From assembly GCA_020073585.1 (NCBI GenBank), contig JAIQEV010000002.1:1-64000 (forward strand): DNA of 64,000 nucleotides, in the 5' to 3' direction. How positions within the stretch are numbered: the stretch's first letter is position 1; each line of letters starts with the position of its first letter. A model generated the notes under the pieces. It made no database searches and had not been told where the DNA came from. It worked only from the letters and a program-made list of their open reading frames with translations. This document shows, in pieces, positions 3,262 to 52,745 of this stretch. Made by a program: the position numbers and the translations under genes. This DNA comes from Terriglobia bacterium. Its GTDB lineage: Bacteria; Acidobacteriota; Terriglobia; Acidiferrales; UBA7541.

Positions 3262-3483
3262 ATGCCAAGCGTATGGGTGAAATGGCGGCTATCGCCTTTT
3301 GAATATTCTGAAATAACTATCAACGACGTACTGGGTGAAGCAAGCCGCGCCTTGGATGAAGCTCCGTGCGAAGCACGAGGCGAAGTTCACAGTGGGAAGA
3401 CGTACATCGTAAACACAAAGCGAGGGTTGTACGTTCTTTGCCGTCGCTGTTGTAAGACGCTCGGCCTGCCAGTTCACGGCTAA
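3262..3483 (+). CDS. Small hypothetical protein inside the repeat element
   Basis: A 73-codon frame starting MPSVWVKWRL and ending in a cysteine-rich LCRRCCKTLGLPVHG tail. I do not recognise a family. There is no convincing ribosome-binding site. It lies wholly between the two inverted-repeat arms, so it may be element cargo or a chance frame. Its base composition is lower in GC than the flanking ruvA. Confidence 0.3.
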   Translation: MPSVWVKWRLSPFEYSEITINDVLGEASRALDEAPCEARGEVHSGKTYIVNTKRGLYVLCRRCCKTLGLPVHG

Positions 3484-3500
3484 CTCCTGATTAGCCGGGT

Positions 3501-3573
3501 TACCGGACAAGTACCATCTTCAAATTCGCATCCAGGGGTGGGGTAGAAACAAGGGGGTGCGTACCTCTTACCC
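3501..3573 (-). repeat. Right inverted-repeat arm
   Basis: Inverted partner of 3113-3184. The sequence TGTCAACGCG directly outside it also occurs outside the left arm in the same orientation. Confidence 0.7.
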
Positions 3574-3609
3574 TGTCAACGCGAGGCGCATCCGAGCGGT
3601 TGGCGGCAA

Positions 3610-4191
3610 CTAGCGGCCGAAGCGGCCCAGCAGTTCGCCCTGCGCTAGGATGTGGCCCTGCATGGCCTTCTCCACGGCGGCTTTGGTGGCGCCGGATTTC
3701 AGCGCCAGCTTGGCGTCCAGCGCGTAGAGCTTGAAAAAGTAGCGGTGGGGCTTTCCCGGCGGGGGGCACGGGCCGCCGTAGCCGGTCTTGCCGAAATCGT
3801 TGCGGCCTTGCCGCGCGCCGCTGGCGAGTTCGGGCTGCTTCTCGACGCCGGGCTCCAGCGCGCGCGCATTCCCCGGCAGATCGAAGAGCACCCAGTGCAC
3901 CCAGGTGCCTCCCGGGGCGTCGGGATCGTCGGCGATGAGCGCGAAGCTGCGCGTGCCCGCGGGCGGCGCGCTCCATTCGAGCGGCGGCGAGACGTCCGCG
4001 CCGCTGCACGTAAATTTCGGGGGAATTTTTTCGCCGGAAGCGAACGCGCTGCTGGAGAGCGTCAGCTTCGCGGCAGAGGCAGGTTTCGGAGAGCCCGGCA
4101 TGCAAGCACCTCCTGCGCAAACCACGAGCGCCGCGCACGCCGCGGCCAGCCAAACCCGGCGGAAGCATGCGCCGTGCTTTCCCCGGCCCAT
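3610..4191 (-). CDS. YbhB/YbcL (PEBP) family lipoprotein
   Basis: Phosphatidylethanolamine-binding-protein fold, bacterial YbhB/YbcL branch, 193 residues. The anion-binding signatures are present: [20 protein letters not shown] (conserved region 1) and [22 protein letters not shown] (conserved region 2). The N-terminus is a hydrophobic export signal ending AGGAC, a plausible though non-canonical lipobox, so the protein is probably membrane-anchored on the periplasmic side. The family function in bacteria is poorly defined. It sits alone between the repeat element and the molybdo-subunit gene. Confidence 0.85.
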
Positions 4192-4223
4192 TGCCGATGG
4201 CTCCCGCTGAGCGCGAACGGCGC

Positions 4224-36978: not shown

Positions 36979-38379
36979 TCAGCCGGCGGGATGCGCGTGC
37001 TGCATGCGCCACCACTCCTGGCCCGCCTCGGGCAGTGTGTAGATGGGATCGTAGTATTCGTACTGACGGGTCAGCGCTCCAGGATCCTGGGCCTCGATGC
37101 CGGTCTTGTAGTTCTTGGTCCAGTAGGTGACGCCCTTGTCGCGGTCGTACTGGCGGACCTGGTGCACCCAGCGCTTGCCCACGAAGGGCACGTCGCAGAC
37201 GATGCGCGGGGTGGCGAAGCCCGGGAGATAGCCCATGATGTCGTGCTGCAACTGCTGGGCTTCGTAGACCGCCACGCGCCAGTGTTCGGCGTTGGGGATC
37301 ATGTCGCACATGTAGAAGTAGTAGGGAATGATCGAAGCGTGGTCCAGGAGAGTGAAGCACAGCTCCAGCAGTTCCGTGGAGGAAGCGTTGACGCCGCGCA
37401 GCAGCACGCCCTGGTTGCGCACGTCGCGGAAGCCGATCTCCAGGAGCTTGCGGGAAGCCCGCGCCACCAGCGGGGTGACCTGCGCGGCATGGTTGGCGTG
37501 GGTGTGAAACGCCAGGCTGACACCGCGCTCCCGCGCCTTCCTGGCCAGGCGCTCGTAGCCGTGCAGCACCTCGTCCTGCAGGAAATGCTGGGGGAGGCCC
37601 ACCAGCCCCTTGGAAGCGAAGCGGATGTCGCGGATGTTCTCGAGGTCCAGCAAGGCGCTGACAAAGGGCTCGAGCTGCTGGATGGGCAGGTTGCCGATGT
37701 CCCCGCCGGAAACCACCACGTCGCGCACCTGCGGCGTGCGCCGCAGATAATCGAGCATCTGTTCGAAGCGTTCCTTCTGCGGAATCTGGAAGCGCAGCTT
37801 GGTCACCTGGGGCACGTCGTTGCCCACCAGGTCCATGCGCGTGCAGTGCCCACAGTACTGCGGGCACGTGGAAACCATCTCCGCCAGGACCTTGGTGGGG
37901 TAGCGGTGGGTCAGGCCCTCGACCGCCCACATGTCGGACTCATGGAGGCTGTCGCGGCTGGCGTGCGGGTGGCTGGGCCACTCGGGATGGCGGTCGTCGA
38001 AGGCCGGGAGCATGTAGTGGCGCACCGGATCGTTCCACAGGTCCTGCTCGTTCATGGTGTTGATCATCTGCGGGGGAACGAGCATGGACATCGTGGCGCG
38101 CTCGCGGATGTCGCGCTCGATGCTGGCGGCGAGGTCGTCGGGGAGCAGAGCTCCCAGGACCTCTTTCAGTTCCTTGAGGTTCTTGACCGTGTGCTGCCGC
38201 TGCCAGAGCGCCGTCTCCCACTGCTCCCGGGTTACGTCCTTCCAGCCGGGAAAGCGCCGCCAGTCGGGCTCTACAAAGGCCCGCTCCAAAGGATATTTGA
38301 ACGGCTGTCCGCCTACACCCACGCGGGTCGTGGGTCTCCAGACGGGCCGCGCCGCTTTAGTGGTCGTAGACGTAGCCAT
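36979..38379 (-). CDS. kamA: KamA-family radical SAM aminomutase
   Basis: 466-residue radical-SAM/PLP enzyme of the lysine 2,3-aminomutase family, which moves the alpha-amino group of lysine (or glutamate in some branches) to the beta carbon. The [4Fe-4S]-SAM motif CPQYCGHC has cysteines at about 172, 176 and 179. The SAM-binding VVVSGGDIG stretch follows. The PLP-binding lysine is probably Lys402 in CDVPFVGK. Substrate cannot be fixed from sequence. No beta-lysine acetyltransferase (ablB) is adjacent. AAGGAG precedes the ATG by eight bases. Confidence 0.85.
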   Translation of the reverse strand: MATSTTTKAARPVWRPTTRVGVGGQPFKYPLERAFVEPDWRRFPGWKDVTREQWETALWQRQHTVKNLKELKEVLGALLPDDLAASIERDIRERATMSMLVPPQMINTMNEQDLWNDPVRHYMLPAFDDRHPEWPSHPHASRDSLHESDMWAVEGLTHRYPTKVLAEMVSTCPQYCGHCTRMDLVGNDVPQVTKLRFQIPQKERFEQMLDYLRRTPQVRDVVVSGGDIGNLPIQQLEPFVSALLDLENIRDIRFASKGLVGLPQHFLQDEVLHGYERLARKARERGVSLAFHTHANHAAQVTPLVARASRKLLEIGFRDVRNQGVLLRGVNASSTELLELCFTLLDHASIIPYYFYMCDMIPNAEHWRVAVYEAQQLQHDIMGYLPGFATPRIVCDVPFVGKRWVHQVRQYDRDKGVTYWTKNYKTGIEAQDPGALTRQYEYYDPIYTLPEAGQEWWRMQHAHPAG

Positions 38380-38547
38380 AACGGGAACTCCTTCTGGTGC
38401 TAACGCAGGGGACGACAAACATATCCATTCTATCAATTTTCCGCGGCTTGCGGGGGCGCCGGGGCTCCGATCGAGCGGAATCGCGGGAGCGCGAGGGACG
38501 AACGAACGGGATGTTCCCGCGCGGCGCAACGGGCCGCGCACGCGCGG

Positions 38548-39201
38548 TTAGAGCAAGCCGCGCTTTGCCGCGTGGATCACGGCTTCCAGCCGGTTGCGTG
38601 TTCCGAGCTTCCGGTTGGCGTGATGCAGGTGATTGCGCAGTGTGCGGTCCGTAATTTTCAGGGTGCGCGCCACCTGCTGCGGACTCTTGCCCTCGGAGAA
38701 CAAGCTCAGCACGCGTTTCTCCTGCACGGTCAGAGGGGAAACCGGGGCCAGCGCAGCGGGACTTTCCTGCAGCGCGGCCAATTCCCTGGCCGCGCCCAGG
38801 ACTTTCCGCGCCAGTTCATCTTTCTTCTCACGGGAGGTGATGTCGCGGGCCAGGTGGATGTGCAAGCGGCGCCCGGAACGGGCATCGCGAAAGACGATGA
38901 TGGAAATATTCACCCAGAGCTGGCGGCCGCCCCGGCCGAGGAGTTGCAGATCGTAGTTCTCCATCTCGCGGCGAGCAGCCGCGCATTGCAGCACGTTGCA
39001 GTCTTCCTTGCAGACGATGTTTCCTTGTGGGCCATGCCCTTGAAACAGACTGGCACAGGACTTCTGGAGAACCGCGGAAGAGGGATAGCCAAAAAGTTTC
39101 TCCGCCGCGCGATTCCAGGAACGAATAATGCCCTGTTCGTCCACCGTGAAGGCCGCATCGGCCGTGCCTTCCAGAAGCGAGAAGAGTTCACTCTCCAACA
39201 T
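38548..39201 (-). CDS. PAS-LuxR transcriptional regulator with cysteine cluster
   Basis: 217 residues: a PAS domain (about 5-125, ADAAFTVDEQGIIRSWNRAAEKLFGYP, later LHIHLARDITSREKK) and a NarL/LuxR helix-turn-helix (about 155-217, LTVQEKRVLSLFSEGKSPQQVARTLKITDRTLRNHLHHANRKLG). Four cysteines lie inside the PAS domain (49, 64, 68, 73), spacing that could hold an Fe-S cluster or redox disulfides. It lacks a receiver domain. It diverges by 104 bp from the Rrf2 gene heading the molybdoenzyme operon, so it probably helps control that operon. The ATG at 39201 has GGAG eight bases upstream. Confidence 0.85.
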   Translation of the reverse strand: MLESELFSLLEGTADAAFTVDEQGIIRSWNRAAEKLFGYPSSAVLQKSCASLFQGHGPQGNIVCKEDCNVLQCAAARREMENYDLQLLGRGGRQLWVNISIIVFRDARSGRRLHIHLARDITSREKKDELARKVLGAARELAALQESPAALAPVSPLTVQEKRVLSLFSEGKSPQQVARTLKITDRTLRNHLHHANRKLGTRNRLEAVIHAAKRGLL

Positions 39202-39217
39202 GAACGACTCCGTGACA

Positions 39218-39301
39218 TTTGTCCTTGAGACTGAGACAAACCGCCGATTGACGGGACCTGCCAAGTGTAGAGAATTCGCTCAATGGATTAAAAGGTCCTT
39301 T
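39218..39301. promoter_or_regulatory. Inverted repeats in the PAS-LuxR/rrf2 spacer
   Basis: TTTGTC (39218-39223) and GACAAA (39235-39240) form an inverted repeat with an 11-base centre. AAAGGTCCTTT (39291-39301), a near-perfect palindrome, overlaps the rrf2 ribosome-binding site. Either could be an operator of the two flanking regulators. Confidence 0.35.
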
Positions 39302-39305
39302 AGTT

Positions 39306-39794
39306 ATGCTTACCTCACTCTTTTCCCGGCCCTGTAGCTACGCCCTGCGCGCGGTTACCTACTTGGCTGCGCAGCCCCAGGGGAAACTTACCGGGAAGAA
39401 GGAGGTTGCCCAACGCGAGTCTATCCCTTCGGCCTTTTTGAGCAAAGTTCTTCTTTCTCTGTGCCATAACCACGTGCTGCGCTCACGCAAAGGCCTCCGC
39501 GGCGGGTACGAGCTTGCCGTTCCCGCGGAACAGATTTCCTTGCTCACCGTGGTCCGCGCGGTAAGCGGCGAACCCTTCCAGGATTGTCTGCTGGAAGAGC
39601 GGCAGTGCTCCAGCACCCATCCCTGCGAGCTTCATGACTCCTGGGCCGTGGTTCGCGGGCAACTGCTGGAGTACTTCGAAACGCTGACCGCAGCCGATCT
39701 GGTACGGCTGCGCCGGCATGAGGACAGCGGAAGCGACCTGGGAAGTGCGTCGGGCGTTGCGCAAACGGTTCGTCCAACGGAACGAGGAGAATGA
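39306..39794 (+). CDS. Rrf2-family regulator with Fe-S cysteines
   Basis: 162 residues. The N-terminal winged helix (SRPCSYALRAVTYLAAQ...SKVLLSLCHNHVLRSRKGLRGGYEL) is typical of Rrf2/IscR/NsrR. Three conserved cysteines at about 94, 101 and 107 (DCLLEERQCSSTHPC) are the expected cluster ligands, so it should sense iron-sulfur status, oxygen, NO or redox state. It is the first gene of the molybdo-oxidoreductase operon, ending two bases before the preferred start of the next gene. Autoregulation is likely for the family. Confidence 0.9.
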   Translation: MLTSLFSRPCSYALRAVTYLAAQPQGKLTGKKEVAQRESIPSAFLSKVLLSLCHNHVLRSRKGLRGGYELAVPAEQISLLTVVRAVSGEPFQDCLLEERQCSSTHPCELHDSWAVVRGQLLEYFETLTAADLVRLRRHEDSGSDLGSASGVAQTVRPTERGE

Positions 39795-39796
39795 CC

Positions 39797-42316
39797 ATGG
39801 CGACGATGCAAAGCACTCCGATTTCTCCGAGCGCGGGCCGCTGGATTCCCAGCACGTGCGGCATGTGCCTGCATGGCTGCGGCATCAAGGTGCAGGTGGT
39901 GGACGGCGTGGCGGTGAAAATCGAAGGCGACCCGACGAATCCCGACAATCTCGGCAAGCTGTGTCCCAAGGGCAACTCCGGCCTGGCCCGCCTCTACGAT
40001 CCCACCCGGGTGCTCTATCCGATGAAGCGCACGAACCCGAAGAAAGGCCTGCACGAAAAGCCGGGCTGGGTGCAGATCGGCTGGGAAGAGGCCTATGAGA
40101 TAGTGGCGCGGGAACTCGGCAAGCTCCGGAAAGATGATCCGCGGAAGCTTCTCTGTGCCATCGGCGATTTCCAGCGCATTCTCCTGTGGGGCTGGCCCGC
40201 GGTGTTCGGCTCGCCCAACTTCTTTACCTCCCTGGGCAATTACTGCGGCGGCTCCTACCATCCGGTGAACGGGAGCGTGGACGGTTCCTTCGCCGCGATC
40301 AACGATTACGAGCATTGCAACTACTGGATTCAGATCGGCTCCGGCGACGGCTTCTCCTCGCACCTGCATCTCTCGGGAAGCGCCAAGCGCATGGCCGATG
40401 CGCGCATGCGCGGGATGCGGGTCGTTTCGCTGGATCCGCGCTGCTCGGTTGCATCCGCGAAGGCGGATGAGTGGATCCCCATTCTCCCCGGCACGGACCG
40501 CGCTTTCGTCCTGGGCATGGCGCATGTGCTGGTGCACGAACTGCGCCGCTATGACCGGGAGTTTTTGCGCGAGCGCACGAATGCTCCGTATCTGGTGAAG
40601 GCCGACGGCTATTTCCTGCGCGATAGCGAGGGCAAAGCCCAGGTCTGGGATCTGCGGGTCAACGCCGCGCGCGCCTGGGATGCGGTCCCCAGCGAATCCA
40701 TGGCGCTGGAGGGAGCCTTTTCCCACGCGGGAATGAACGTGCGCACCGGCTTCCAGGTGTGGATGGACATCCTGCTCGAGAACACGCCCGAGAAGATGAG
40801 CGAAGTCACCACGGTCCCGGCCGCGACCATCCGGCGGATTGCGCGGGAATTTGTGGACGCCGCGCAGATCGGGGCCAGCATCGAAATTCAGGGCAAGACC
40901 TATCCGTATCGTCCCGCGGCGCTCAATTACTACCGCGGCTCGCAATCCCATGCCAACGGCCTCTTCGACAACATAACCTACAAGCTTTTCAATATGCTGG
41001 TGGGAAACATCGACGTGCCCGGGGGGCATCTCGGCGTTCCCCTCGATCACCGCGGGTTCTTCGTCAGTCCGGGCGAGGACGGGATGCTCAAGCCCGAACC
41101 GCACCAGTTGCATCCCGCGCCGGAATTCAAGTACCCGCCGGATTCCACGCACTTGCTGGAGTGGTTCCCCATCGGTTTCGACGCCGGGCAGCTCAACGCC
41201 GAAACGGTGTTGAATCCGGAGCGCTTCGGCTTGAATTACCGGCCGGAGGCCATGCTGCTCTACCACTCCAACCCGTGGTGGAACATGCCGGAAACCGACA
41301 AGATCGAAAAGATCTTCCAGAGCATGAAGTTCGTCGTGGCGATCGATATTCAGGAGACGGAATCCACGCAATGGGCCGACGTCTTCCTGCCGGACCGCAC
41401 CTTCCTGGAATCCACGCTGCTCAATTGTCTGGAGCCGCCCGCGGTCACGGGCCACGCGCTGCGGCAGCCGGTGGTCGAGCCGCTCGGCGACACCCGGGAC
41501 GCTTACGAAATCCTCACCGAATTGGCCGAGCGCATGGGTTTCCGGGATGACTGGAACGATTTTCTGAATATCGTTTGCGGGTATACGGCCAAGCCGAAAT
41601 ATCTGCTGGATCCGGACAAGCGGCACACGGTGGACGAGTTCTGGGACCGCTACGCGCGCAGCATCTACGGGGAGGACAAAGGGCTGGAGTGGTTCAAGGT
41701 GCACGGGCACGCGGTGCGCTACCGCACCCCGGAGGAAACGTACCTGCCTTTCGGCAACCTGCGCATCCCCTTTTATTTCGAGTTCATCAAGCGCACCGGG
41801 GAGCAGATGCGGGTCCGGCTCTCCGAAGCGGGCATGAAAGACTGGCCGCTCGATAATTACCAGCCGCTGCCGTTCTGGAAGAACTCGCAGGTGATCGAGG
41901 ACGGAAAGGCGGGGTACGAATACTACGGCATCACCTTCAAGGAAAGCCTGCATACCTTCGCGGACACCATGGTCATGCCGTGGCTATCGGAAGTCAGCGA
42001 CAAAGATCCCATTCACGGGGGGATCCTGATCAATTCCGCCACCGCCGGCAAACTGGGGATCAAGACGGGCGACCGGTTGCGGCTAACTTCACCGGCGGGC
42101 AGCATCGAGGGGGCAGCGCAAGTGGTGGAAGGGATCCATCCGCAGGTCCTGGGGGTCAGCAATACCATCACGCGGCAGGTGGTCAACAATAAACGGGTGC
42201 GGGCGAAGGGCAGCCACTTTAACCGCTTGCTGACCGGATCGATGCGCTATACCGACAGCGCGACCGGCGGGCTGGAGTCCACGGCGCGTGTGCGCGTGGA
42301 ACGCCTGGGAGCGTAA
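39797..42316 (+). CDS. DMSO-reductase-family molybdo/tungsto-oxidoreductase catalytic subunit
   Basis: 839 residues, bis-MGD enzyme. An N-terminal [4Fe-4S] site has cysteines at about 21, 24, 28 and 56 (CGMCLHGC ... LCPKGN). A cysteine at about 150 (SLGNYCGGSYHP) is a candidate metal ligand. The C-terminal molydopterin-dinucleotide domain shows GILINSATAGKLGIKTGDRLRL. No twin-arginine signal precedes it, so the enzyme appears cytoplasmic, unlike most PsrA/PhsA/DmsA relatives. The ATG at 39797 has GAGGAG seven bases upstream; the in-frame ATG at 39791 is too close. The substrate is not assignable; pyrogallol-, sulfur- or arsenic-type reactions are all conceivable. Confidence 0.9.
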   Translation: MATMQSTPISPSAGRWIPSTCGMCLHGCGIKVQVVDGVAVKIEGDPTNPDNLGKLCPKGNSGLARLYDPTRVLYPMKRTNPKKGLHEKPGWVQIGWEEAYEIVARELGKLRKDDPRKLLCAIGDFQRILLWGWPAVFGSPNFFTSLGNYCGGSYHPVNGSVDGSFAAINDYEHCNYWIQIGSGDGFSSHLHLSGSAKRMADARMRGMRVVSLDPRCSVASAKADEWIPILPGTDRAFVLGMAHVLVHELRRYDREFLRERTNAPYLVKADGYFLRDSEGKAQVWDLRVNAARAWDAVPSESMALEGAFSHAGMNVRTGFQVWMDILLENTPEKMSEVTTVPAATIRRIAREFVDAAQIGASIEIQGKTYPYRPAALNYYRGSQSHANGLFDNITYKLFNMLVGNIDVPGGHLGVPLDHRGFFVSPGEDGMLKPEPHQLHPAPEFKYPPDSTHLLEWFPIGFDAGQLNAETVLNPERFGLNYRPEAMLLYHSNPWWNMPETDKIEKIFQSMKFVVAIDIQETESTQWADVFLPDRTFLESTLLNCLEPPAVTGHALRQPVVEPLGDTRDAYEILTELAERMGFRDDWNDFLNIVCGYTAKPKYLLDPDKRHTVDEFWDRYARSIYGEDKGLEWFKVHGHAVRYRTPEETYLPFGNLRIPFYFEFIKRTGEQMRVRLSEAGMKDWPLDNYQPLPFWKNSQVIEDGKAGYEYYGITFKESLHTFADTMVMPWLSEVSDKDPIHGGILINSATAGKLGIKTGDRLRLTSPAGSIEGAAQVVEGIHPQVLGVSNTITRQVVNNKRVRAKGSHFNRLLTGSMRYTDSATGGLESTARVRVERLGA

Positions 42317-42322
42317 CGGGCC

Positions 42323-42610
42323 ATGCCGATCGCCAAAATCGCCGCTCTGGGGAGTACCCGCAAGATGCTGGGATTCAGCCGGCAGACGCTGGAGTTTGAG
42401 GGCGCCACGATCGCCGACCTGCTGCGCCAGTTGCCCACGCGGGACGGCGGCAGCCTCTACGACAGCCTGGTGTGCGACGGCAAGTTGCGGAGCGACTTTG
42501 CGATCGTGGTGGATGGGCTGAGCTTGAAAGCCGGCGAACTGGATAAGGAACTGCGGGGCGGCGAGGAGATCGTCACGCTGGCGATCATCCGCAGCCTGGC
42601 CGGCGGGTAA
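42323..42610 (+). CDS. MoaD/ThiS-like ubiquitin-fold protein
   Basis: 95 residues with the small beta-grasp pattern (TLEFEGATIADLLRQLP, FAIVVDGLSLKAGELDKELRGGEEIVTLAII) and a C-terminal Gly-Gly (SLAGG), the feature needed for adenylation and thiocarboxylate formation. It lies six bases after the catalytic subunit, so it is translationally linked. It may donate sulfur to this enzyme's molybdo- or tungstopterin, or act as a dedicated accessory protein; the E1-like activating enzyme is not in the window. Confidence 0.82.
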   Translation: MPIAKIAALGSTRKMLGFSRQTLEFEGATIADLLRQLPTRDGGSLYDSLVCDGKLRSDFAIVVDGLSLKAGELDKELRGGEEIVTLAIIRSLAGG

Positions 42611-42636
42611 CGGGTATCACTCTGCGAGGTGCTGCA

Positions 42637-43251
42637 ATGGCCCGACTGGGCATGGTGATTGATTTGAAGCGCTGCATCGGCTGCAATGCCTGCACGCTGG
42701 CCTGCAAACAGGAAAACGGGACGCCCGAGGGCATTCATTACGCCCGCGTCGTCACGCAGGAGGCCGGCGTCTATCCCCGGACGAAGCGCACCTTCCTGCC
42801 CGTGCTCTGCAATCATTGCGCGGATGCGCCGTGCGCCGAGGCCTGCCCCACCGGGGCGACGTATATCCGTCCCGACGGCATTGTCATGGTGGACCACAAG
42901 AAGTGCATCGGGTGCCGCGCATGCAATGTGGCCTGCCCGTATATGAACCGCCACTTCATCGAGCGCGGACTGCTGAAGCACGGGTACAGCAGCGACGGCA
43001 TCAGCCCGTTCGAAGCGCTCAAGTTCGCGGACTTCGACGAGGGGACCAACATCAAATGCACGCTCTGCGCCCACCGTGTGGATGAGGGCCTGGAGCCGGC
43101 TTGCGTCGTGACCTGTCCCACCGATGCGCGCGTGTTCGGAGACTGGGAAGAGGAAAACGGCAAATTGCAGCGCCTCGTCAAGGAAAGAAAGGCCTGGACC
43201 TTGCTGCCGGAGTACGGCACGAAGCCCAGCGTGCAGTATCTCGACGAATAG
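42637..43251 (+). CDS. Four-cluster ferredoxin-type electron-transfer subunit
   Basis: 204 residues, DmsB/PhsB/NrfC class. Four cysteine-rich groups are visible: CIGCNACTLAC, CNHCADAPCAEACP, CIGCRACNVACP and CTLCAHRVDEGLEPACVVTCP. These would bind four [4Fe-4S] clusters and carry electrons between the catalytic subunit and the NrfD-type membrane subunit. No export signal; it would be co-localised with the catalytic subunit on the cytoplasmic side. Third structural gene of the operon, 26 bp after the MoaD-like gene. Confidence 0.93.
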   Translation: MARLGMVIDLKRCIGCNACTLACKQENGTPEGIHYARVVTQEAGVYPRTKRTFLPVLCNHCADAPCAEACPTGATYIRPDGIVMVDHKKCIGCRACNVACPYMNRHFIERGLLKHGYSSDGISPFEALKFADFDEGTNIKCTLCAHRVDEGLEPACVVTCPTDARVFGDWEEENGKLQRLVKERKAWTLLPEYGTKPSVQYLDE

Positions 43252-43285
43252 CGCGCCGACGCGGGGATTTGAGCGGAGAAACGAT

Positions 43286-44194
43286 ATGACGACACGAGAG
43301 TTGTTGATTGCGCCACACCGCTTCGCCTTTGGATACCATCGCCAGACGTTCTGGAACTGGCTGATCGGAACCGCCTTTTTCCTGGGCGGCGTGGGCGGCG
43401 GATTGTTCCTGGTCTCGCTGCTGACGGGGCACGTTGCGGGAATGCTGGCGGGTGTCCTGATCGTGGTTGTCGGCAAGAACAGCGCGCATCTGGCTTTTCT
43501 GGGACGGCCCGAGCGGTTCCTGCGCGCCGCCGCCCGGCCGGACCGCTCCTGGATCGCCCGCGGAATCTGGGCCACGGGCGTCTTTGCGGTGACCGGATTC
43601 CTGAGCGTTTTGCTCCGCGCGCACTCGCCGCTCCTGCAACTTCCCGAGTGGGCCGCCAACTTGAATTACGCGCTGGCCGCCGCGTCCGCGCTGTTCATCG
43701 CGTGCTACGACGGCTTCCTCATGCGCTCTTCCGCGGGTGTGGCGTTCTGGCGAACGCTGCTTCTGCCGCTGCTGTTGTTCATGTATGCCGCGCTCGGAGG
43801 GATCACGCTGTCCCTGACCATACGCGAGCTTCAAGGGGAAGCGCCTCCGGAGATCCTCCCGGCGCTCGAGCATGGGCTGCTCGTCGCGAACTTTTTCCTC
43901 CTGGGCATCTATCTGTTGCGGATGAACCGGTCGCTTCCGGCGGCGCGCGCAACGCTGCGGCAGTGGCTCAACGGACGCTATGCGCGCTTCTTCTTCGGAC
44001 TCGTGGTGCTGGTGGGGCTCCTGGCAACCTTGCTCCTTTCGCTGCTGCATGGCAGGGTGCAGACCTCCTGGCTAGTCTTGCTGATCGCCGCCTGCGAGCT
44101 GGCCGGGGACTTTTCGATGATGATGCTGCTGCTCAAATCGGGGCTGTTTGCGCCGCAGGCCGCGCCCGCCTATAGCCGGGGCACGGCAGGCTGA
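43286..44194 (+). CDS. nrfD: NrfD/PsrC-like integral membrane subunit
   Basis: 302 residues with about eight to nine membrane helices (WLIGTAFFLGGVGGGLFLVSLLTG, GMLAGVLIVVVG, FWRTLLLPLLLFMYAALGGITLSL, FFFGLVVLVGLLATLLLSLL). NrfD-type subunits anchor such complexes and exchange electrons with the quinone pool. The ATG at 43286 has GCGGAG about eight bases upstream; the frame is open further upstream but that part lies inside the ferredoxin gene. It closes the rrf2-led operon. Confidence 0.9.
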   Translation: MTTRELLIAPHRFAFGYHRQTFWNWLIGTAFFLGGVGGGLFLVSLLTGHVAGMLAGVLIVVVGKNSAHLAFLGRPERFLRAAARPDRSWIARGIWATGVFAVTGFLSVLLRAHSPLLQLPEWAANLNYALAAASALFIACYDGFLMRSSAGVAFWRTLLLPLLLFMYAALGGITLSLTIRELQGEAPPEILPALEHGLLVANFFLLGIYLLRMNRSLPAARATLRQWLNGRYARFFFGLVVLVGLLATLLLSLLHGRVQTSWLVLLIAACELAGDFSMMMLLLKSGLFAPQAAPAYSRGTAG

Positions 44195-44304
44195 CCAACC
44201 CTGTTTTGTCTGATCCGTCGTTTTTCAAAGCAAGTGGGCCAAAGAAAATACCCGGGGGTTCGATACAGAAAGACTGCACCTAAAAAAGCAACGTGGAGAC
44301 CCAC

Positions 44305-47300
44305 ATGAATCGTCGGCTCGTTTCCGGTTATGCGATCTGGAGTTCCTGTCTTTTGGTTTTGTGCTTGTTGCTGTCCGCACCCGCCGTTCAGTCCCAAACT
44401 CTCGCGGACCTGTCGGTGTCCGTCCAGGACACGAGTGGCGGAGCGATCTCGGGAGCCTCGATCGTTCTGACCAGCACAACGACGGGGCTGCAACGCCAGA
44501 CGGAGAGCGATGAGAACGGGGTCGGGCGAATTATGAACATTTCGCCGGGGGAGTACGAGTTGCACGTCGAGTTTCGGGGGTTCAAGCCGGCGACGAAGGC
44601 GCTGCATATGCAAGTGGGGCAGAGCGCTTCCTTGACCATGACGCTGGCGGTCGAGGCTGCGGCCACGGCGGTGACCGTCACGGCCACGGAAGAGGAAGGG
44701 ATCCAGCCGACGAAGTCGCAGGTCAGCGAAGTGATCAGCGAGCGCCAGATCGTGGACCTGCCGATCAAGGGCCGCAACTTCATCGATTTCGTGATGCTGA
44801 CCCCGGAGGTGACGTTGGGCAACAGCACGTCGGTGGGGAGCCAGGCGCCGTTCACCGAGCAAACGCCCAAGCTGAGCTTTGCCGGGGTGCGGGAATCGCA
44901 CTCCGTGTTCATTTCGCTGGACGGGGTGGATTACACGACGAGTCTTTCCGGGCTGCAGCGGAGTTCCCCGGCGCAGGAATGGGTGCAGGAGTTCCGCGTG
45001 GTGACGAGCAGCTACGATTCCGAAGTGGGCCGGACGCTGGGCGGCATCGTGAACACGGTAACGCGTTCGGGCAGCAACGTGGTGCATGGCGGAGTTTACG
45101 AATATTTCCGGAACAACGCCCTGGATGCGAGCAATCCGCTCTCCTCGCCGGGCATGGACGCTTTGCGCCTGAATCAGTTCGGCGGGACGCTGGGCGGCCC
45201 CATCGTCAAGGACAAGACCTTCTTTTTCACGGGGTACGAAGGGCAGCGCCGGGCGCAGTCGCCGCGCTATTCGAGCTTCATTCAAGCGAATATCGCGGGG
45301 ATCAACGCCACCAAGCAGTTCTTCGGATTGTCGCAGGAGAATCTGGGGTCCGTCCTGATGGTGAACGACTACGACAAGCTGATCGGCAAGCTGGACCATC
45401 AGTTCACCGGCAGCACCATACTGGCCGTGCGTTATCTGTTCTCTGACGAACGCAATCCCAACAGCCCCGGCGCGCCTCCGGGGCTGGGTTTGCCCAGCAC
45501 CTTCCGGGACAATCCGATCCGGGATCAGTCGCTGGCGGCAAACCTGATTCATACCTTCTCCCCCAAGCTCACCGGGGATACCGTGTTCCAGTTTGCCCGC
45601 CGTACCTTCCATCTGGACCCGGTGGGCGCCGGGCGGGAACCGTTCATGGCCATCCCGAATCTGGTGCAATCCGGCGGTCCGGTGGGGAGCTTTATCTTCT
45701 ATCGGGAGACGCGGTTGCAGTTTGGCCAGAACATGACCCGGACGTATTCCAAGCACACGGTGAAATTCGGCGGAGAGTTTCATGAGATTTGGAACTCCAC
45801 GAAATCGCCGATGTTCACGCCGGCGGTGAGCGTATTCAGTCCGCAAAGCTACTTCGGACTGGCGCCGTTCACGCAGCCGACCGCGGTGGTGTTCTACTTT
45901 GGCATGCCAAGGTCGCTGTGGGGACAGCAACTGCTGCCGCGGGGCACGGATTGGCAGGCCAGCCTGTTGCCGCAGTCGATGCTGGACGCGTTCGACAAGG
46001 CTTCCTCGGCGAACTTTACACGGCAGATTGCCGGCCTATACCTCCAGGACAAATGGCAACCTATCACGCATCTCACGCTGACGTACGGGTTCCGCTACGA
46101 CTTCGAGACGCGGCCGTTTCACGATCGCAACTGGTATGACCAGGATTGGCGGGATGTCCAGCCGCGCGTTGGCTTCTCCTACGCCTTCAATGACAAGACC
46201 GTGGTGCGCGGGGGCTTTGGCATTTATTTTGGCCCCTTCAACTGGAGCGAACTGACGGGCACGACCACGGCGTTCGGACCGATCACCGGCTACCTGAACA
46301 ATCCGCTGGTGGGGCCTTTTGTGAATTCCACGCAGAGCCTGGTGGGCCTGGCAGAGTTCGGCCCGGTGGGAGTGGCGTTTCCCGGCCCCGGCGGGATACC
46401 GGCGGCGACGGCGTTCGCCAATTTCACCAGCACGGGGTCCTATCCGGCGCCGGATCAGCTGATTGGGTTCTCGCACGGGTTCACGACCAAGCACTTCCCG
46501 AATCCCTATTCGGAAAATGCCAGCCTGCAGGTGGAACGCAGCCTCGGAGCGGACATGCAGATGTCGATTGGCTACTCCTATGTGCATGCGCTGCGAATCC
46601 ATTATTTCGGCAACGCCAACGCCAAGCCAAACGGCACTTTGCCGGATGGCAAGCAGGCGCTCACGCTGGCCGATCCCAACTTCGGATTTGCCTTTCTGGA
46701 TTCCCCGGATGCGAAATCCATGTATCACGCCGGATTCCTGACGTTCAATAAGCGTTTCCGGAATCATTACGGCGTAATGGCCAATTACACGTGGTCGAAG
46801 TCCATCGACAATCAGACCACGATCCAGTTTGCCACCGGACCGCAGAACTATCTGCGGAGAGACCTGGAGCACGGGATTTCCGACAACCACGTCGCGCACC
46901 GCTTCATCCTGACGGCGCTGGGCGATTCGCCCTTCCACAACCCCGCGGCGAAAGACTGGAACCTGGCGCTCACGGCCACCCTGCAGAGCCCCCGCTACCA
47001 ATCGATCCTCGTGGGCTTCGATTCCAACGGAGACGGTTTCCCCTTCTCCGACCGGGTCGGCTTGCTGGGGCGCAATACCTACGCGGGAGACGTGTTCCGG
47101 ACTTTCGACATCCGGTTGCAGCGCGATTTCCCCTTCGAGCTCTCGCAGCACTCCGGGAAGATGACGTTCAGTTGCGAGATATTCAACCTGCTGAACCGCG
47201 TGAACGTGCTGGATGTGGACAACATTTACGCGGCGCCGGATTTTATCGGGCCGGTGCCGCAGCATTACGGCGATGGCGTGCAGGGGGCCCAGCCAGGCTT

Positions 47301-47364
47301 CGGCCTGCCGCGCAGCGTCGCCGACATGCGCCAACTCCAGTTTTCGCTGCGGTTCACCTTCTAG
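44305..47364 (+). CDS. Oar-like TonB-dependent receptor
   Basis: 1,019 residues. A signal peptide (LVLCLLLSAPAVQSQ) is followed by a carboxypeptidase-regulatory/Cna-like domain (about 33-110, LSVSVQDTSGGAISGASIVLTS...LHVEFRGFKP), a plug (QIVDLPIKGRNFIDFVMLTPEV, GVRESHSVFISLDGVDYTTS, GRTLGGIVNTVTRSGSN) and a large 22-strand-type barrel ending MRQLQFSLRFTF. This class is abundant in Acidobacteriota and probably imports large or complexed substrates. It lies between the two molybdoenzyme gene sets on the same strand. The ATG at 44305 has GGAG seven bases upstream; a GTG at 44293 is in frame. Confidence 0.92.
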   Translation: MNRRLVSGYAIWSSCLLVLCLLLSAPAVQSQTLADLSVSVQDTSGGAISGASIVLTSTTTGLQRQTESDENGVGRIMNISPGEYELHVEFRGFKPATKALHMQVGQSASLTMTLAVEAAATAVTVTATEEEGIQPTKSQVSEVISERQIVDLPIKGRNFIDFVMLTPEVTLGNSTSVGSQAPFTEQTPKLSFAGVRESHSVFISLDGVDYTTSLSGLQRSSPAQEWVQEFRVVTSSYDSEVGRTLGGIVNTVTRSGSNVVHGGVYEYFRNNALDASNPLSSPGMDALRLNQFGGTLGGPIVKDKTFFFTGYEGQRRAQSPRYSSFIQANIAGINATKQFFGLSQENLGSVLMVNDYDKLIGKLDHQFTGSTILAVRYLFSDERNPNSPGAPPGLGLPSTFRDNPIRDQSLAANLIHTFSPKLTGDTVFQFARRTFHLDPVGAGREPFMAIPNLVQSGGPVGSFIFYRETRLQFGQNMTRTYSKHTVKFGGEFHEIWNSTKSPMFTPAVSVFSPQSYFGLAPFTQPTAVVFYFGMPRSLWGQQLLPRGTDWQASLLPQSMLDAFDKASSANFTRQIAGLYLQDKWQPITHLTLTYGFRYDFETRPFHDRNWYDQDWRDVQPRVGFSYAFNDKTVVRGGFGIYFGPFNWSELTGTTTAFGPITGYLNNPLVGPFVNSTQSLVGLAEFGPVGVAFPGPGGIPAATAFANFTSTGSYPAPDQLIGFSHGFTTKHFPNPYSENASLQVERSLGADMQMSIGYSYVHALRIHYFGNANAKPNGTLPDGKQALTLADPNFGFAFLDSPDAKSMYHAGFLTFNKRFRNHYGVMANYTWSKSIDNQTTIQFATGPQNYLRRDLEHGISDNHVAHRFILTALGDSPFHNPAAKDWNLALTATLQSPRYQSILVGFDSNGDGFPFSDRVGLLGRNTYAGDVFRTFDIRLQRDFPFELSQHSGKMTFSCEIFNLLNRVNVLDVDNIYAAPDFIGPVPQHYGDGVQGAQPGFGLPRSVADMRQLQFSLRFTF

Positions 47365-47478
47365 GAAGTGAAGCAGAGGATGGCCGGGGCGGCGGCAGGC
47401 CGGATGCCTGGCGCCGCCCCGGGATTGAAGAGGATGGCGGCCGTCTGGCCGGGGCGCGTTTCTCGCGAGGAGGGCACG

Positions 47479-48366
47479 ATGGGAATCTCGGGAGTCAGGG
47501 AATTCTGCAGGCCGCAAAGCGCCCGCGACGTCGTGGATCTGCTCGCGAAGCACGGAGACCGGGCGGTGCTCCTCGCGGGCGGGACGTTCCTCCATGGGCT
47601 GTTTGCGCGGGGGCTGGGATCGGGCGTTGAAGTTCTCGTCGATTTGCAGAAAGCCGGTCTTTCCTATGTGAAGGCTGCAAACGGCGGCTTGGCTCTCGGG
47701 GCGATGACCACGTTCCGGGAACTCGCGGAGAGCGAGGCGGTTCAGAAGACGGCCGAATTCGCCGCGATCCGCGATGCTCTGCAGTATCCGCCAGCGCAGA
47801 TCCGCAACCAGGCAACCGTCGGGGGATGCGTGGCCAGCGCCTCTTCCTTGTTTGATCTGCCGGTGGCCCTGCTGGCGCTCGATGGCTCGGTCAAGTCACT
47901 CGGGCCGCGCGGGCCGCGCGAGACCACGCTGGCAAAGTTTTTTGTGGACTATTTCGAGCACTCCCTGGAGAAAGGCGAGTTCCTCACCGAGGTGCTGCTG
48001 CCGAAGCTGCCTCCGCGCTCGGCCAGCGCCTTTCTCAAGCTGGAGACGAACTCGAACGACCTCGCGCTGGTCAACGTGGCCGTGCGCATCACGCTGGACC
48101 AGGCCGGCCTCTGCCGGGATGCCCGCGTGGTGATCGGCGGCGGGGTGGGCAAGGCGCCGGTGCGCGCGGTGTCCTGCGAAGCCGTGCTGAAAGGACAACG
48201 TCCATCGCGGACCCTGTTCGAGAGCGCCGCGCAGGAGGTTTCCTCCGACATTCAGCCGGTTTCCGACCACCGGGCGTCCGGGCAATACCGGCGGGCGGTG
48301 GCCAAGGTTTATCTGCGCCGAGCACTTCTCCGGGCGGCGGAGCGGCTGGGCGTGGAGATCGCGTGA
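47479..48366 (+). CDS. FAD-binding subunit of a molybdenum hydroxylase
   Basis: 295-residue CoxM/XdhB-type medium subunit. The FAD diphosphate motifs are AVLLAGGTFLHGL (about 31-43) and QATVGGCVASASS (about 110). A CO-dehydrogenase-flavoprotein C-terminal domain follows. It passes electrons from the 2Fe-2S subunit to the acceptor. GAGGAGG lies six bases before the ATG at 47479. It is first of a three-gene set in the order FAD, Fe-S, Mo subunit. Confidence 0.9.
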   Translation: MGISGVREFCRPQSARDVVDLLAKHGDRAVLLAGGTFLHGLFARGLGSGVEVLVDLQKAGLSYVKAANGGLALGAMTTFRELAESEAVQKTAEFAAIRDALQYPPAQIRNQATVGGCVASASSLFDLPVALLALDGSVKSLGPRGPRETTLAKFFVDYFEHSLEKGEFLTEVLLPKLPPRSASAFLKLETNSNDLALVNVAVRITLDQAGLCRDARVVIGGGVGKAPVRAVSCEAVLKGQRPSRTLFESAAQEVSSDIQPVSDHRASGQYRRAVAKVYLRRALLRAAERLGVEIA

Positions 48367-48445
48367 GGCGGGCGCCAGGCGCCGGCCGGAACATCGGGCA
48401 CTGGTCCGGCAAGCAAGAAGAATGCGTGAATTGGGAGACTCAGCC

Positions 48446-48910
48446 ATGAAACAGGTAATCGCTCTGGAAGTGAACGGCGAGCGGCACGAGATTGCGGTGC
48501 AGCCTTCTGCCACGCTGCTGCAGGTGCTGCGGGAAGAACTCGATCTGCTGGGCACGAAACAGGCCTGCGATGCCGGAGGATGCGGCTGCTGCACGGTTCT
48601 GCTGGATGGCCGTGCCGTCTATTCCTGCATGGTGTTTGCCATGTCCGCGCAGGACAAAAAGATAACGACGATCGAAGGTTTGCCAAAAGACGGCAAGCTC
48701 GATCCGCTCCAGGAAGCATTCATTCAGGCTGGGGCGGTGCAGTGCGGCTATTGCACCAGCGGCATGATCATGGCCGCCAAGGAGTTTCTCACGAGTGCGC
48801 GCGCGCCGAGCGATCCGGAGATCCGCCAGGCCATTTCGGGAAATCTGTGCCGCTGCACCGGCTATCACAAGACGGTGGACGCCATTCGCATGGCTGCATC
48901 CGGCCGTTAA
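48446..48910 (+). CDS. [2Fe-2S] subunit of a molybdenum hydroxylase
   Basis: 154-residue CoxS/XdhC-type small subunit. The plant-type cluster uses CDAGGCGCC...C (cysteines at about 41, 46, 49 and 61). The second, C-terminal cluster uses CGYC and CRC (100, 103, 135, 137). Both are complete, so an electron path from the Mo site to FAD is intact. The ATG at 48446 has GGGAG eight bases upstream. No Tat signal is present, so the enzyme is cytoplasmic. Confidence 0.93.
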   Translation: MKQVIALEVNGERHEIAVQPSATLLQVLREELDLLGTKQACDAGGCGCCTVLLDGRAVYSCMVFAMSAQDKKITTIEGLPKDGKLDPLQEAFIQAGAVQCGYCTSGMIMAAKEFLTSARAPSDPEIRQAISGNLCRCTGYHKTVDAIRMAASGR

Positions 48911-48934: not shown

Positions 48935-51274
48935 ATGTCCAAAATGAAGATTGTCGGCAACAGGGTTCTCAGGACGGATGCCTACGATAAGGTCACCGGG
49001 GGCAAGAGTTATACCGTCAACCTCCGGCTGCCGGGCATGCTGCACGCCAAGCTCCTGCGCAGTCCCTATCCGCACGCGCGCGTCCTGCGCGTGGACACTT
49101 CCCGAGCGGAAAAGCTTGCGGGCGTGAAGGCCATCCTGACGGCGGCGGACGTACCGCAGATCAAGTATCACCCCGTGTATTTTGCGCCGAGCACTGCCGC
49201 GAGCATGGTACGCGACATGCTGATCCTGACCAGCACCGTGCGCTTTGCCGGCGAGCCGGTAGCCGCGGTGGCCGCGACACGGACGGAGATTGCCGAGGAA
49301 GCGCTGGAGCTGATCCACGTGGAGTACGAGGCGCTCCCCGCGGTCTTCGAGGCGGCGGAAGCGATGAAACCCGGCGCACCGCAGCTCTATGAGCACGCAC
49401 CGAATAACGTGGTCATGAATCCGTCGTTCAGCTTCGGCGATGCGCAGAAAGGCTTCGACGAGGCCGACTACGTTTTCGAGAACACCTACCGCACGCAGCG
49501 GGTGCACACCTGCTACATGGAGCCGCGGGTCTGCGTGGTGGACAGCGACACCAGCGGGAACCTCACCATCTGGTCCTCCACGCAGCACATCTTCGGACTG
49601 CGGGAAAAGCTGGCCTTTGCCCTGGGCATTCCCGTCAGCAAGGTGCGCGCGGTGAAGCCTACCTACATCGGCGGGGGATTCGGCGGCAAGCTGGACATGG
49701 GTTTCCTGGAACCGGTGGCCGCGCTGCTGAGCCTGAAGACCGGGCGGCCGGTGCGCCTCGAGCATACGCGTTATGAGGACTTCATCACTACCGCCAGGAA
49801 TCCCTTCGAAGTGCAGCTGAAGACGGGGGTCAAGAAAGACGGAACCTTCACCGCCCGCTGGGCCAAGAGCATACTGGACACGGGCGCGCATGCCACGCAT
49901 GGCGCCGTGGTGCTCATGGTCCATGGCTTCTTCGGTTTCCTGCTGCCCTACCGCTGCGCGAATCAAAAATGGGAAGGCATGACGGTGTACACCAACAACA
50001 TCATCGGCGGAGGGTTCCGCGGCTACGGCGCGCCGCAGGCGGCGTTTGCGGTGGAATCGCAGATTGATGAAATCTGCGACAAGTTGAAGCTCGACCCCAT
50101 CGAGTTCCGGCTGAAAAATGCGCACAGCGAAGGCGAGCAGCACCCCTTCGATCCCAACTTCACCCTGTCCACGTATCGTCTTGCCGAGTGCCTGAAGAAG
50201 GGCGCGGAACAGATCGGCTGGTCCAAACGGCTTCCGGCCGGCGCCGGCAACGGCACGAAAAAACGAGGCATTGGATTCGCCTGCCAGCCGCTGTGGGTCA
50301 GCGGCTGCGTGGGCTTCCCGGACATCTATGAGCATTCCGGCGCGATCCTCAAACTGAATGTGGACGGCACGGTGAATCTGTCCATCGCCACGGTGGATAT
50401 GGGTTGCGGGCAGAACACGGTCCTCAGCCAGATCGCCGCGGAAGAGCTGGGCGTCGCGGTCAAGGACATCCGGGTCACCTATGCGGATACAGATACCGTT
50501 CCTTTCGACGCCCCCAGCCACGCCAGCCGGGTCACCTATTCGGCGGGAAATGCGGTGAAGGCCGCGGCCGCGTCGGCCAAGCGGAGAGTGTTCCAGGTGG
50601 CCAGCGGGCTCTTGAATAGTTCTGCCGAGAATCTGGAGATCGTGGACGGGCGGGTGCAGGTGAAAGGCGCGCCGGCAAACGGGATGCCGCTGGCCGACGT
50701 CGTGAAGCGCGCAGAATCGCCTTGCGTCAACATGGTGCCCGACGGCATGCAACGCACTCCGCTCGAGGAGAAGGGAACCATCATGGGTAGCGCCTGTCTG
50801 GCTCCCGCCTCCAATCCGTCACCCGCCGCCGTGGAGTTCGTCGAGGTCGAAGTGGACACCGAAACCGGCGAGGTCAAGGTACTTCGCGTTGCCTATGCCC
50901 ACGACATCGGAAAAGTCATCAACCCGCCGGGAGCGGAAGGGCAGGTCGAGGGAGGATTGCAGCAGGGCATGGGCTACGCGCTGATGGAGAACTTGGTCTT
51001 CGATCCTTCGAGCGGCGCCTGCCTGGCGGCGGATTTCTTGAACTACAAGATGCCGACGGCGCTGGAGATGCCCGCCGAGATTACCTGTCAGTGGGTCGAG
51101 TCGAACGAGCCCACGGGACCTTTCGGCGCCAAGTCTCTTGCGGAGGCCTGCGCGATTGTTCCCGCCCCGGCCATCGCGAATGCCATTTATAACGCGGTCG
51201 GAGTGCGCGTGCGGGATTTGCCCATCACACCAGAAAAAATACTGGCCGCGCTTGGGAAGCTCGATCCTGCCTGA
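48935..51274 (+). CDS. Molybdopterin-binding subunit of a molybdenum hydroxylase
   Basis: 779-residue large subunit of the xanthine-dehydrogenase family. Mo-cofactor loops IGGGFGGKLDMG, GGGFRGYGAPQAAFAVESQ and MGCGQNTVLSQIAAEELG are present. The catalytic Glu is expected in FGAKSLAEA. The CO-dehydrogenase active-site loop AYRCSFR is absent, so it is not a form I CO dehydrogenase; a purine, nicotinate, aldehyde or hydroxybenzoyl-CoA type substrate is more likely. AGGGGGAC precedes the ATG. The stop codon begins a 13-bp direct repeat. No maturation gene (xdhC/coxF type) follows. Confidence 0.92.
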   Translation: MSKMKIVGNRVLRTDAYDKVTGGKSYTVNLRLPGMLHAKLLRSPYPHARVLRVDTSRAEKLAGVKAILTAADVPQIKYHPVYFAPSTAASMVRDMLILTSTVRFAGEPVAAVAATRTEIAEEALELIHVEYEALPAVFEAAEAMKPGAPQLYEHAPNNVVMNPSFSFGDAQKGFDEADYVFENTYRTQRVHTCYMEPRVCVVDSDTSGNLTIWSSTQHIFGLREKLAFALGIPVSKVRAVKPTYIGGGFGGKLDMGFLEPVAALLSLKTGRPVRLEHTRYEDFITTARNPFEVQLKTGVKKDGTFTARWAKSILDTGAHATHGAVVLMVHGFFGFLLPYRCANQKWEGMTVYTNNIIGGGFRGYGAPQAAFAVESQIDEICDKLKLDPIEFRLKNAHSEGEQHPFDPNFTLSTYRLAECLKKGAEQIGWSKRLPAGAGNGTKKRGIGFACQPLWVSGCVGFPDIYEHSGAILKLNVDGTVNLSIATVDMGCGQNTVLSQIAAEELGVAVKDIRVTYADTDTVPFDAPSHASRVTYSAGNAVKAAAASAKRRVFQVASGLLNSSAENLEIVDGRVQVKGAPANGMPLADVVKRAESPCVNMVPDGMQRTPLEEKGTIMGSACLAPASNPSPAAVEFVEVEVDTETGEVKVLRVAYAHDIGKVINPPGAEGQVEGGLQQGMGYALMENLVFDPSSGACLAADFLNYKMPTALEMPAEITCQWVESNEPTGPFGAKSLAEACAIVPAPAIANAIYNAVGVRVRDLPITPEKILAALGKLDPA

Positions 51275-51578: not shown

Positions 51579-52745
51579 TCAATGAATTTCTCCGTTGACC
51601 GGCTTTGTCTCCTTGAATTGCGCGAAGATCTTTTCCGCATTTCGGTGATAGATCTTGTCGAGGACCACGTTTGGCAACTCGATTCCGTATATTTTCCAAC
51701 GCCCTTGCTCCGGATAACCGTAATAATCGAAATACTCATCAGCGGTTTCCAGCCAGCGGAAGTAATTGCGGTACATCTTCTCATCACTACCAGAATCGCT
51801 GCCGAACAGGATGCGATCCGGATAGGCGAGGAACAGTTTCTGCGCCTGCCGTGGCTGGCGGCCCAGTTCGGCCTCACGCGCTCCAAACTCCATGTAAAGA
51901 TTCGGGTATTTCGCGAGTGCATTCGCCACCCATTCCAGGTTTTCCGGCCAACCCATGTGCAGGGAAACAAAAATTGTGCGCGGATGCCTGGCGATGACGC
52001 GGTTGCGCGCTTCGAGAAGAGACTCAATGCTGGGAAAATCCGGACCGTGGAAACTCCAGTCGGGATGATCGACCAGTTCCTCGTAGCGTTCGTTCTTCGC
52101 ATCGGTTGGATGAAAGAAAGCTTCCGGGTCGCCGGTGTGAATGAAAACGGGGATCCCCAGCCTTCCGCACTCCTCCCAGATGGGGTCGAGTCGCGGATCA
52201 TCCACCGTGATCAGTTTTCCTGTCTTATCACGAACACCCAGGCCCAGATCCTTGAGAACCTTCAGCCCTCGTGCGCCGCGCGCCACCGAGTCGTCCATTT
52301 GCTTGACCATCAACTGACTGAAACCCGGATCGTCAATTTTGCTCCAATCGATCTGGGTGAAGACCAGGAAGCGGCCGGGATACGGCTTGACCATCTCGTC
52401 GAGCACTTTTTGCAGCTTGTCACCCCACATGCCCGTAAGGATGACAATCGTGCGGATGTTGTTCCTGTCCATCATGGCAACAAGCCCGGCCGGATTCACC
52501 TGTTCCTCATCGATGCCCATTGCATCGTTGACATGGCTATGGACATCAATGACCGGGTACCTGGCGCGGGTGATCGAGCGGGCGGGCACATGCACCATCG
52601 ACTCCGGCTTGTAGTCCTTGAGGAGTATTCTCTTTTTCGCATCCGCATCCTGATCCGTCCGGTAACCGATCTGCGTTTGTGCGTCCAAATCCTGGATCAG
52701 GATGAAAGCGGCAATCAAAACGAATAGACGAAATGCCCAGCGCAT
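51579..52745 (-). CDS. Exported amidohydrolase (ACMSD-like fold)
   Basis: 388 residues, amidohydrolase-2/ACMSD-type TIM barrel with an N-terminal export signal (LFVLIAAFILIQDLDAQ). Metal-ligand motifs are DVHSHV (His69, His71), FIHTGDP, SLHMGWP and FGSDSGSD. The family hydrolyses or decarboxylates small carboxylic substrates; the substrate is not assignable. It is 31 bp downstream of the amino-acid permease gene on the same strand, so the two may form an operon. Confidence 0.85.
   Translation of the reverse strand: MRWAFRLFVLIAAFILIQDLDAQTQIGYRTDQDADAKKRILLKDYKPESMVHVPARSITRARYPVIDVHSHVNDAMGIDEEQVNPAGLVAMMDRNNIRTIVILTGMWGDKLQKVLDEMVKPYPGRFLVFTQIDWSKIDDPGFSQLMVKQMDDSVARGARGLKVLKDLGLGVRDKTGKLITVDDPRLDPIWEECGRLGIPVFIHTGDPEAFFHPTDAKNERYEELVDHPDWSFHGPDFPSIESLLEARNRVIARHPRTIFVSLHMGWPENLEWVANALAKYPNLYMEFGAREAELGRQPRQAQKLFLAYPDRILFGSDSGSDEKMYRNYFRWLETADEYFDYYGYPEQGRWKIYGIELPNVVLDKIYHRNAEKIFAQFKETKPVNGEIH

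Follow-up and report, generated by a model that had tools for sequence, protein, structure and literature searches.

Operon Organization and Catalytic Subunit

The operon described here occupies positions 39306–44194 of a 64,000-nucleotide stretch of DNA (the window), which was taken from contig C64 in an Acidobacteriota genome (G000) that spans 4.03 Mb. Tightly packed on the plus strand, it encodes an Rrf2-family regulator (rrf2), a catalytic subunit of the DMSO reductase family (mopB), a small MoaD/ThiS-like protein (moaD-like), a four-cluster ferredoxin subunit and an NrfD-type membrane anchor (nrfD), whose coordinates are collected in Table 1. The intergenic gaps from rrf2 to nrfD measure −4, 6, 26 and 34 bases, making a single transcript likely; promoter and terminator scans gave counts not above those of shuffled sequence. 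A first-pass annotation had proposed this five-gene operon, and every gene was confirmed at its stated position. All data derive from genome bins, in which contamination is possible, and the searched collections hold one genome per species, with the phylum covered by samples.

All three Pfam domains expected of a DMSO reductase family catalytic subunit score above cutoff in MopB. Its [4Fe-4S] cysteines 23, 26, 30 and 58 as well as Cys152 are invariant across 18 sequences, and Lys60 stands two residues past Cys58. Cys152 aligns to the region of the ligand cysteine in ArrA, PsrA and acetylene hydratase and is thus the putative metal ligand. The gene is under purifying selection, the ratio of nonsynonymous to synonymous substitution rates (dN/dS) being about 0.09–0.12. 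No RR motif of a twin-arginine translocation (Tat) signal was found within the first 45 residues in the six orthologues checked, so the active site most likely resides in the cytoplasm, as the first-pass annotation had suggested from the missing signal.

The solved proteins nearest to MopB by sequence are ArrA, PsrA and acetylene hydratase. Among the families listed in our fold comparison, for which alone the ranking speaks, the MopB model (predicted local distance difference test score, pLDDT, 76.8) matches PsrA (Z 29.6, root-mean-square deviation (rmsd) 2.9, 676 residues) and ArrA (Z 28.7, rmsd 3.0, 690 residues) equally well, and acetylene hydratase with Z 26.9 (rmsd 3.0, 643 residues). The family models of PhsA and ArrA score 276 and 168 bits on MopB against cutoffs of 694 and 1600, respectively. 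In acetylene hydratase the catalytic residue is Asp13, next to a cluster cysteine; this position is taken by Leu27 in MopB, which excludes MopB as an acetylene hydratase.

The 16 cysteines of the ferredoxin subunit are invariant in 12 relatives, and the NrfD anchor is probably quinone-reactive. Full-length MopB relatives form a close clade with 76–94% identity, found in the window and in G034, G049, L006, G035 and G242, where G049 and G035 denote the same contigs as L005 and L007, respectively, and G242 belongs to another class than the rest. A mid clade with 33–40% identity is spread across the Acidobacteriota, and its MopB N-termini are similar to those of the close clade.

A Dedicated MoaD-Like Protein

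The moaD-like gene sits between mopB and the ferredoxin gene in all six close loci, and its product carries an invariant Cys51 and an equally invariant Gly-Gly terminus (6/6 orthologues). No Pfam model matches this protein, and TIGR01687 reaches 20 bits, under its cutoff of 49.5. This weak profile assignment is firmed up by the structure model (pLDDT 84), whose top matches in the PDB are SAMP1, MoaD, Urm1 and CysO. The protein thereby combines the predicted beta-grasp fold and the C-terminal Gly-Gly of MoaD/ThiS sulfur carriers. Its gene is also under purifying selection (dN/dS 0.14–0.54) and evolves faster than mopB.

That the gene is dedicated to this enzyme, as initially claimed, was borne out by our survey. 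Of 297 sampled genomes of the phylum, only the window genome and G242 gave a hit with the MoaD-like profile (0 of the 295 others), and in an equally large phylum sample these two are also the ones with the close-clade enzyme. The pairing is constant within the close clade and does not extend further: the mid-clade loci inspected (L053–L066) comprise mopB and the ferredoxin gene, with nrfD where the contig reaches, and no moaD-like gene. The window genome furthermore encodes a general MoaD, whose gene adjoins moaE on contig C101, a ThiS (C23) and two CysO-like proteins (C32 and C1), all of which exceed the Pfam ThiS cutoff, whereas the window protein stays under it. As the window protein is separate from the moaD–moaE pair and divergent, with a C-terminal context of IRxLxGG versus PPVSGG in the general MoaD, we exclude it as the general MoaD of the cell.

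Most likely, the MoaD-like protein is a dedicated maturation factor for the cofactor of this enzyme. This assignment draws on the analogy with AorD and AorE, MoaD-like proteins encoded in the AOR operon of Aromatoleum, which are absent from purified AOR and were proposed as helpers of tungsten cofactor synthesis (PMC6365974). An unusual sulfur-transfer step, by comparison, is conjecture. The protein might instead belong to the complex itself, in a structural or regulatory capacity, in line with its strict co-occurrence with MopB, its divergent sequence and C-terminal end and its faster evolution; we consider such a role unlikely given the invariant Gly-Gly end and the absence of AorD and AorE from the purified enzyme. 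With carrier and enzyme so strictly paired, removing the gene would test the carrier role directly.

Tungsten, suggested initially as the possible metal, found no support, with no sequence feature favoring it over molybdenum and five of the six operon genomes lacking an AOR-family enzyme. The sole AOR was detected in the window's own bin, on contig C97, which has a G+C content of 0.57 versus 0.62–0.68 in the other stretches examined and is possibly a contaminant. On this contig (locus L128), the AOR gene at 3388–5250 is followed by a moaD-like and a ferredoxin gene and adjoins TRAP-transporter-like genes; the MoaD encoded there is not especially close to the window protein. The analogy to AOR operons concerns gene arrangement and gives no evidence for tungsten in the window operon.

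Phylogenetic Placement

The position of MopB was assessed in a tree of 47 sequences with PsrA/PhsA, ArrA/ArxA, acetylene hydratase, DmsA, FdnG, NapA and a putative SoeA as references, where ArrA, PsrA and acetylene hydratase are represented by the aligned parts from a PDB search and SoeA by a proxy assigned only through its DmsC-type anchor. Long branches or a biased composition affect several of the aligned sequences, and the deep branching order is therefore provisional. The close clade is recovered with a support of 100/100, its union with the mid clade and a Sporomusa sequence with 98/98, and the further addition of a Natronorubrum sequence with 99/97. Next to this lineage stands the putative SoeA pair (93/90, not starred), beyond which ArrA/ArxA, themselves a group with 100/99, join at 94/94. 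PsrA/PhsA form a group of their own (100/99) apart from the MopB lineage, and acetylene hydratase likewise branches apart. As far as tested, MopB hence falls outside every characterized reference on the tree, including the PsrA/PhsA, ArrA/ArxA and acetylene hydratase groups. The lineage is Tat-less and, beyond the close clade, lacks the moaD-like gene. Plasmid searches returned no closer characterized homologue, the best full-length match being Sporomusa termitida with 29–33% identity.

Regulators and Gene Neighborhood

Table 1. Features of the operon and its surroundings in the window.
Feature	Position	Strand	Basis and remarks
PAS-LuxR (GerE) regulator, divergent	38548..39264	-	Pfam PAS_9 and GerE
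Rrf2-family regulator	39306..39794	+	Pfam Rrf2, 99 bits
MopB, catalytic subunit, DMSO reductase family, 841 aa	39791..42316	+	Pfam Molybdopterin, Molybdop_Fe4S4, Molydop_binding
MoaD/ThiS-like beta-grasp protein, 95 aa, C-terminus LAGG	42323..42610	+	predicted structure, conserved Gly-Gly
Ferredoxin subunit, four predicted [4Fe-4S] clusters, ArrB/DsrO-like	42637..43251	+	16 invariant Cys
NrfD/PsrC-type membrane anchor	43286..44194	+	Pfam NrfD, 33 bits (cutoff 25.8); hydrophobic segments
TonB-dependent receptor with carboxypeptidase-regulatory domain	44293-47364		between nrfD and the XDH-type genes
XDH-type FAD subunit (associated, outside the complex)	47368..48366	+	family scan; G242 orthologue directly after nrfD
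XDH-type [2Fe-2S] subunit	48422..48910	+	position and sequence inspection
XDH-type Mo subunit	48935..51274	+	NF043082, 662 bits (cutoff 780)

In an alignment of four orthologues, the Rrf2 protein keeps a C-x6-C-x5-C-x2-H pattern that resembles the Fe-S ligands of IscR and may likewise hold a cluster, which makes redox or Fe-S control of the operon likely. The operon was described as Rrf2-led; this is correct for the window and does not hold as a general trait, since rrf2 heads four of the six orthologous operons. The divergent PAS-LuxR gene adjoins rrf2 in four of the six loci (the window, G034, L005 and L007). Its PAS domain contains conserved cysteines (VCxxDCxVLxC), and redox sensing is possible.

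Neighboring genes without family-scan support were named by sequence inspection. A xanthine-dehydrogenase-type (XDH-type) trio accompanies the operon in three of the six loci (G000, G034 and G242). It directly follows nrfD in G242, while the TonB-dependent receptor precedes it in the window and G034 and is not at that place in G242. The Mo subunit of the trio stays below every NCBIfam cutoff. At E <1e-200 it occurs in two of the 95 genomes of the order (G000 and G034), both of which carry the operon, and between the window and G242 it is 73% identical, a divergence similar to that of MopB (76%). Upstream of the operon, G242 encodes the benzoyl-CoA reductase protein BcrB (699 bits, cutoff 486.55), two Amidohydro_2 proteins, an acyl-CoA dehydrogenase and two SDR proteins (CoA, coenzyme A). 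In G034, a styrene-monooxygenase-like gene (216 bits, below the cutoff of 550) lies upstream; L005 holds a similar cluster, and ALDH-like genes stand beside the operon in both. Near mid-clade members we found CoA-transferase-III-like, CoA-ligase, uroporphyrinogen-decarboxylase-like or FAD-linked-oxidase genes.

Elsewhere in the window, a gene named by sequence inspection as a lysine 2,3-aminomutase-like radical SAM protein is located at 36979–38541, and an Amidohydro_2 protein with an apparent signal peptide is encoded on the opposite strand at 51579–52745. Amidohydro_2 genes are also found close to the operon of G242 and to the mid-clade operon of G347.

Proposed Function and Alternatives

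Based on the domain content and tight packing of the operon, the missing Tat motif, the tree position, the strict co-occurrence of the moaD-like gene, the catabolic neighbors (BcrB, Amidohydro_2, acyl-CoA dehydrogenase, SDR, monooxygenase-like, CoA-transferase-III-like and CoA-ligase genes) and the XDH-type trio, we tentatively favor, with somewhat less than even confidence, a cytoplasm-facing, quinone-linked molybdenum (or tungsten) enzyme of PsrABC layout that takes part in the catabolism of organic, probably aromatic or CoA-bound compounds and has a dedicated maturation carrier. Such a membrane-anchored bis-pyranopterin oxidoreductase would perform its substrate chemistry at the Cys-ligated metal of MopB, and electrons would run between the [4Fe-4S] cluster of MopB and a quinone at the NrfD anchor by way of the four ferredoxin clusters. 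The favored direction would be a water-dependent oxidation feeding the quinone pool, like that of phenylacetyl-CoA:acceptor oxidoreductase (PadBCD), while a reductive direction as in catechol dehydroxylases appears less likely. The MoaD-like protein may act as a sulfur carrier with a C-terminal thiocarboxylate served by the general MoeB and MoaE, or as a helper in cofactor loading.

Several observations weigh against this assignment, beginning with the gene neighborhoods, which vary among the six loci and from which we infer the aromatic link. Benzoyl-CoA reductase genes occur in G242 only, at the chosen threshold neither G035 nor G049 has the XDH-type genes, and the monooxygenase-like genes of G034 and L005 suggest aerobic metabolism. 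PadI (phenylglyoxylate dehydrogenase), the pathway partner of PadBCD, was found above cutoff in none of 396 genomes, with no match in G000. In addition, the tree position of MopB makes sulfite a possible substrate.

The complex could itself be a true PadBCD or a close homologue performing a cytoplasmic, quinone-linked α-oxidation of another aryl-acetyl-CoA. The three-subunit layout is that of padBCD and the setting is of CoA type, with BcrB beside the G242 operon and, at mid-clade loci, genes of the CoA-transferase-III-like and CoA-ligase types; the styrene-monooxygenase-like and ALDH-like genes at the operon in G034 and L005 would also fit. However, no MoaD-like gene is known in pad operons, PadB is likened to MopB by layout and description and not by sequence, and the absence of PadI from all 396 genomes, the window genome included, argues against a strict route from phenylacetyl-CoA to phenylglyoxylate. 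We accordingly rejected the Pad pathway by genome context and regard this identity as unlikely, even though PadBCD has been named in an organism with the benzoyl-CoA pathway (PMC4148979). A quinol-driven dehydroxylation of catechol or another phenolic compound, comparable to that of gut catechol dehydroxylases, seems quite improbable. Some of those enzymes lack a Tat signal (PMC7028382), the gene setting in G242 is aromatic and the XDH-type partner could be reductive too, like 4-HBCR and Ucdh (PMC12771579), but the closest relative of catechol dehydroxylases is acetylene hydratase (PMC7028382), whereas the MopB clade is nearer to SoeA/ArrA on the tree. We give still less credence to the complex being SoeABC, the sulfite dehydrogenase of the cytoplasm, or a different ArrA/PsrA-like enzyme with an inorganic substrate. 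It is backed by the putative SoeA as sister (93/90), by SoeABC being cytoplasmic as well (PMC6335251) and by ArrA and PsrA as the best solved relatives of MopB; against it stand the long distance on the tree, the assignment of the SoeA proxy from its DmsC-type anchor alone and the lack of recognized sulfur or arsenic genes near the operon loci.

Returning to the quinone-linked catabolic enzyme that we favor, a bolder version would have the ubiquitin-like carrier give sulfur to the cofactor or the reaction itself within an undescribed step of aromatic catabolism, which we deem improbable at present. Our literature search found no described DMSO reductase operon with both MoaD and NrfD, and to our knowledge, dedicated sulfur-carrier partners have so far been described for AOR-type tungsten enzymes. 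If true, the DMSO reductase family would gain such a partner, and the operon would point to a quinone-linked reaction not yet tested in the carbon turnover by soil and peat Acidobacteria.

Comparison with Known Systems

PsrABC polysulfide reductase and ArrAB arsenate reductase are both Tat-exported. They share the subunit layout and are nearest to MopB among solved sequences and folds, but they fall into supported groups of their own on the tree, and MopB carries no Tat motif. By analogy, the closest functional counterpart of the complex is PadBCD, which consists of a catalytic, an Fe-S and an anchor subunit and converts a CoA ester; we know of no MoaD-like gene in pad operons. The enzyme of Thauera and Aromatoleum is, according to the title of a 1999 paper by Rhee and Fuchs (which PMC9765128 cites), a membrane-bound Mo/Fe-S protein like the one proposed here, and it is part of a pathway for aromatic compounds under anaerobic conditions (PMC4148979, PMC9765128). 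Its PadI partner, however, was not found over cutoff in the searched genomes, and PadB was compared by description. SoeABC is likewise a cytoplasmic three-subunit molybdoprotein complex (PMC6335251) and the putative SoeA stands beside MopB on the tree (93/90, not starred), yet the proxy has a DmsC-type anchor, SoeABC lacks a MoaD-like gene, and the window operon is without recognized sulfur genes. The catechol dehydroxylases of gut Actinobacteria also belong to the DMSO reductase family, act on aromatic substrates and are partly Tat-less (PMC7028382), but their relation to acetylene hydratase sets them apart from MopB, by description and not on the tree. The operon aorABCDE of Aromatoleum aromaticum finally resembles the window operon in that MoaD-like genes are part of the operon of a metalloenzyme (PMC6365974), although AOR is a tungsten-dependent enzyme of another protein family, whereas MopB belongs to the DMSO reductase family.

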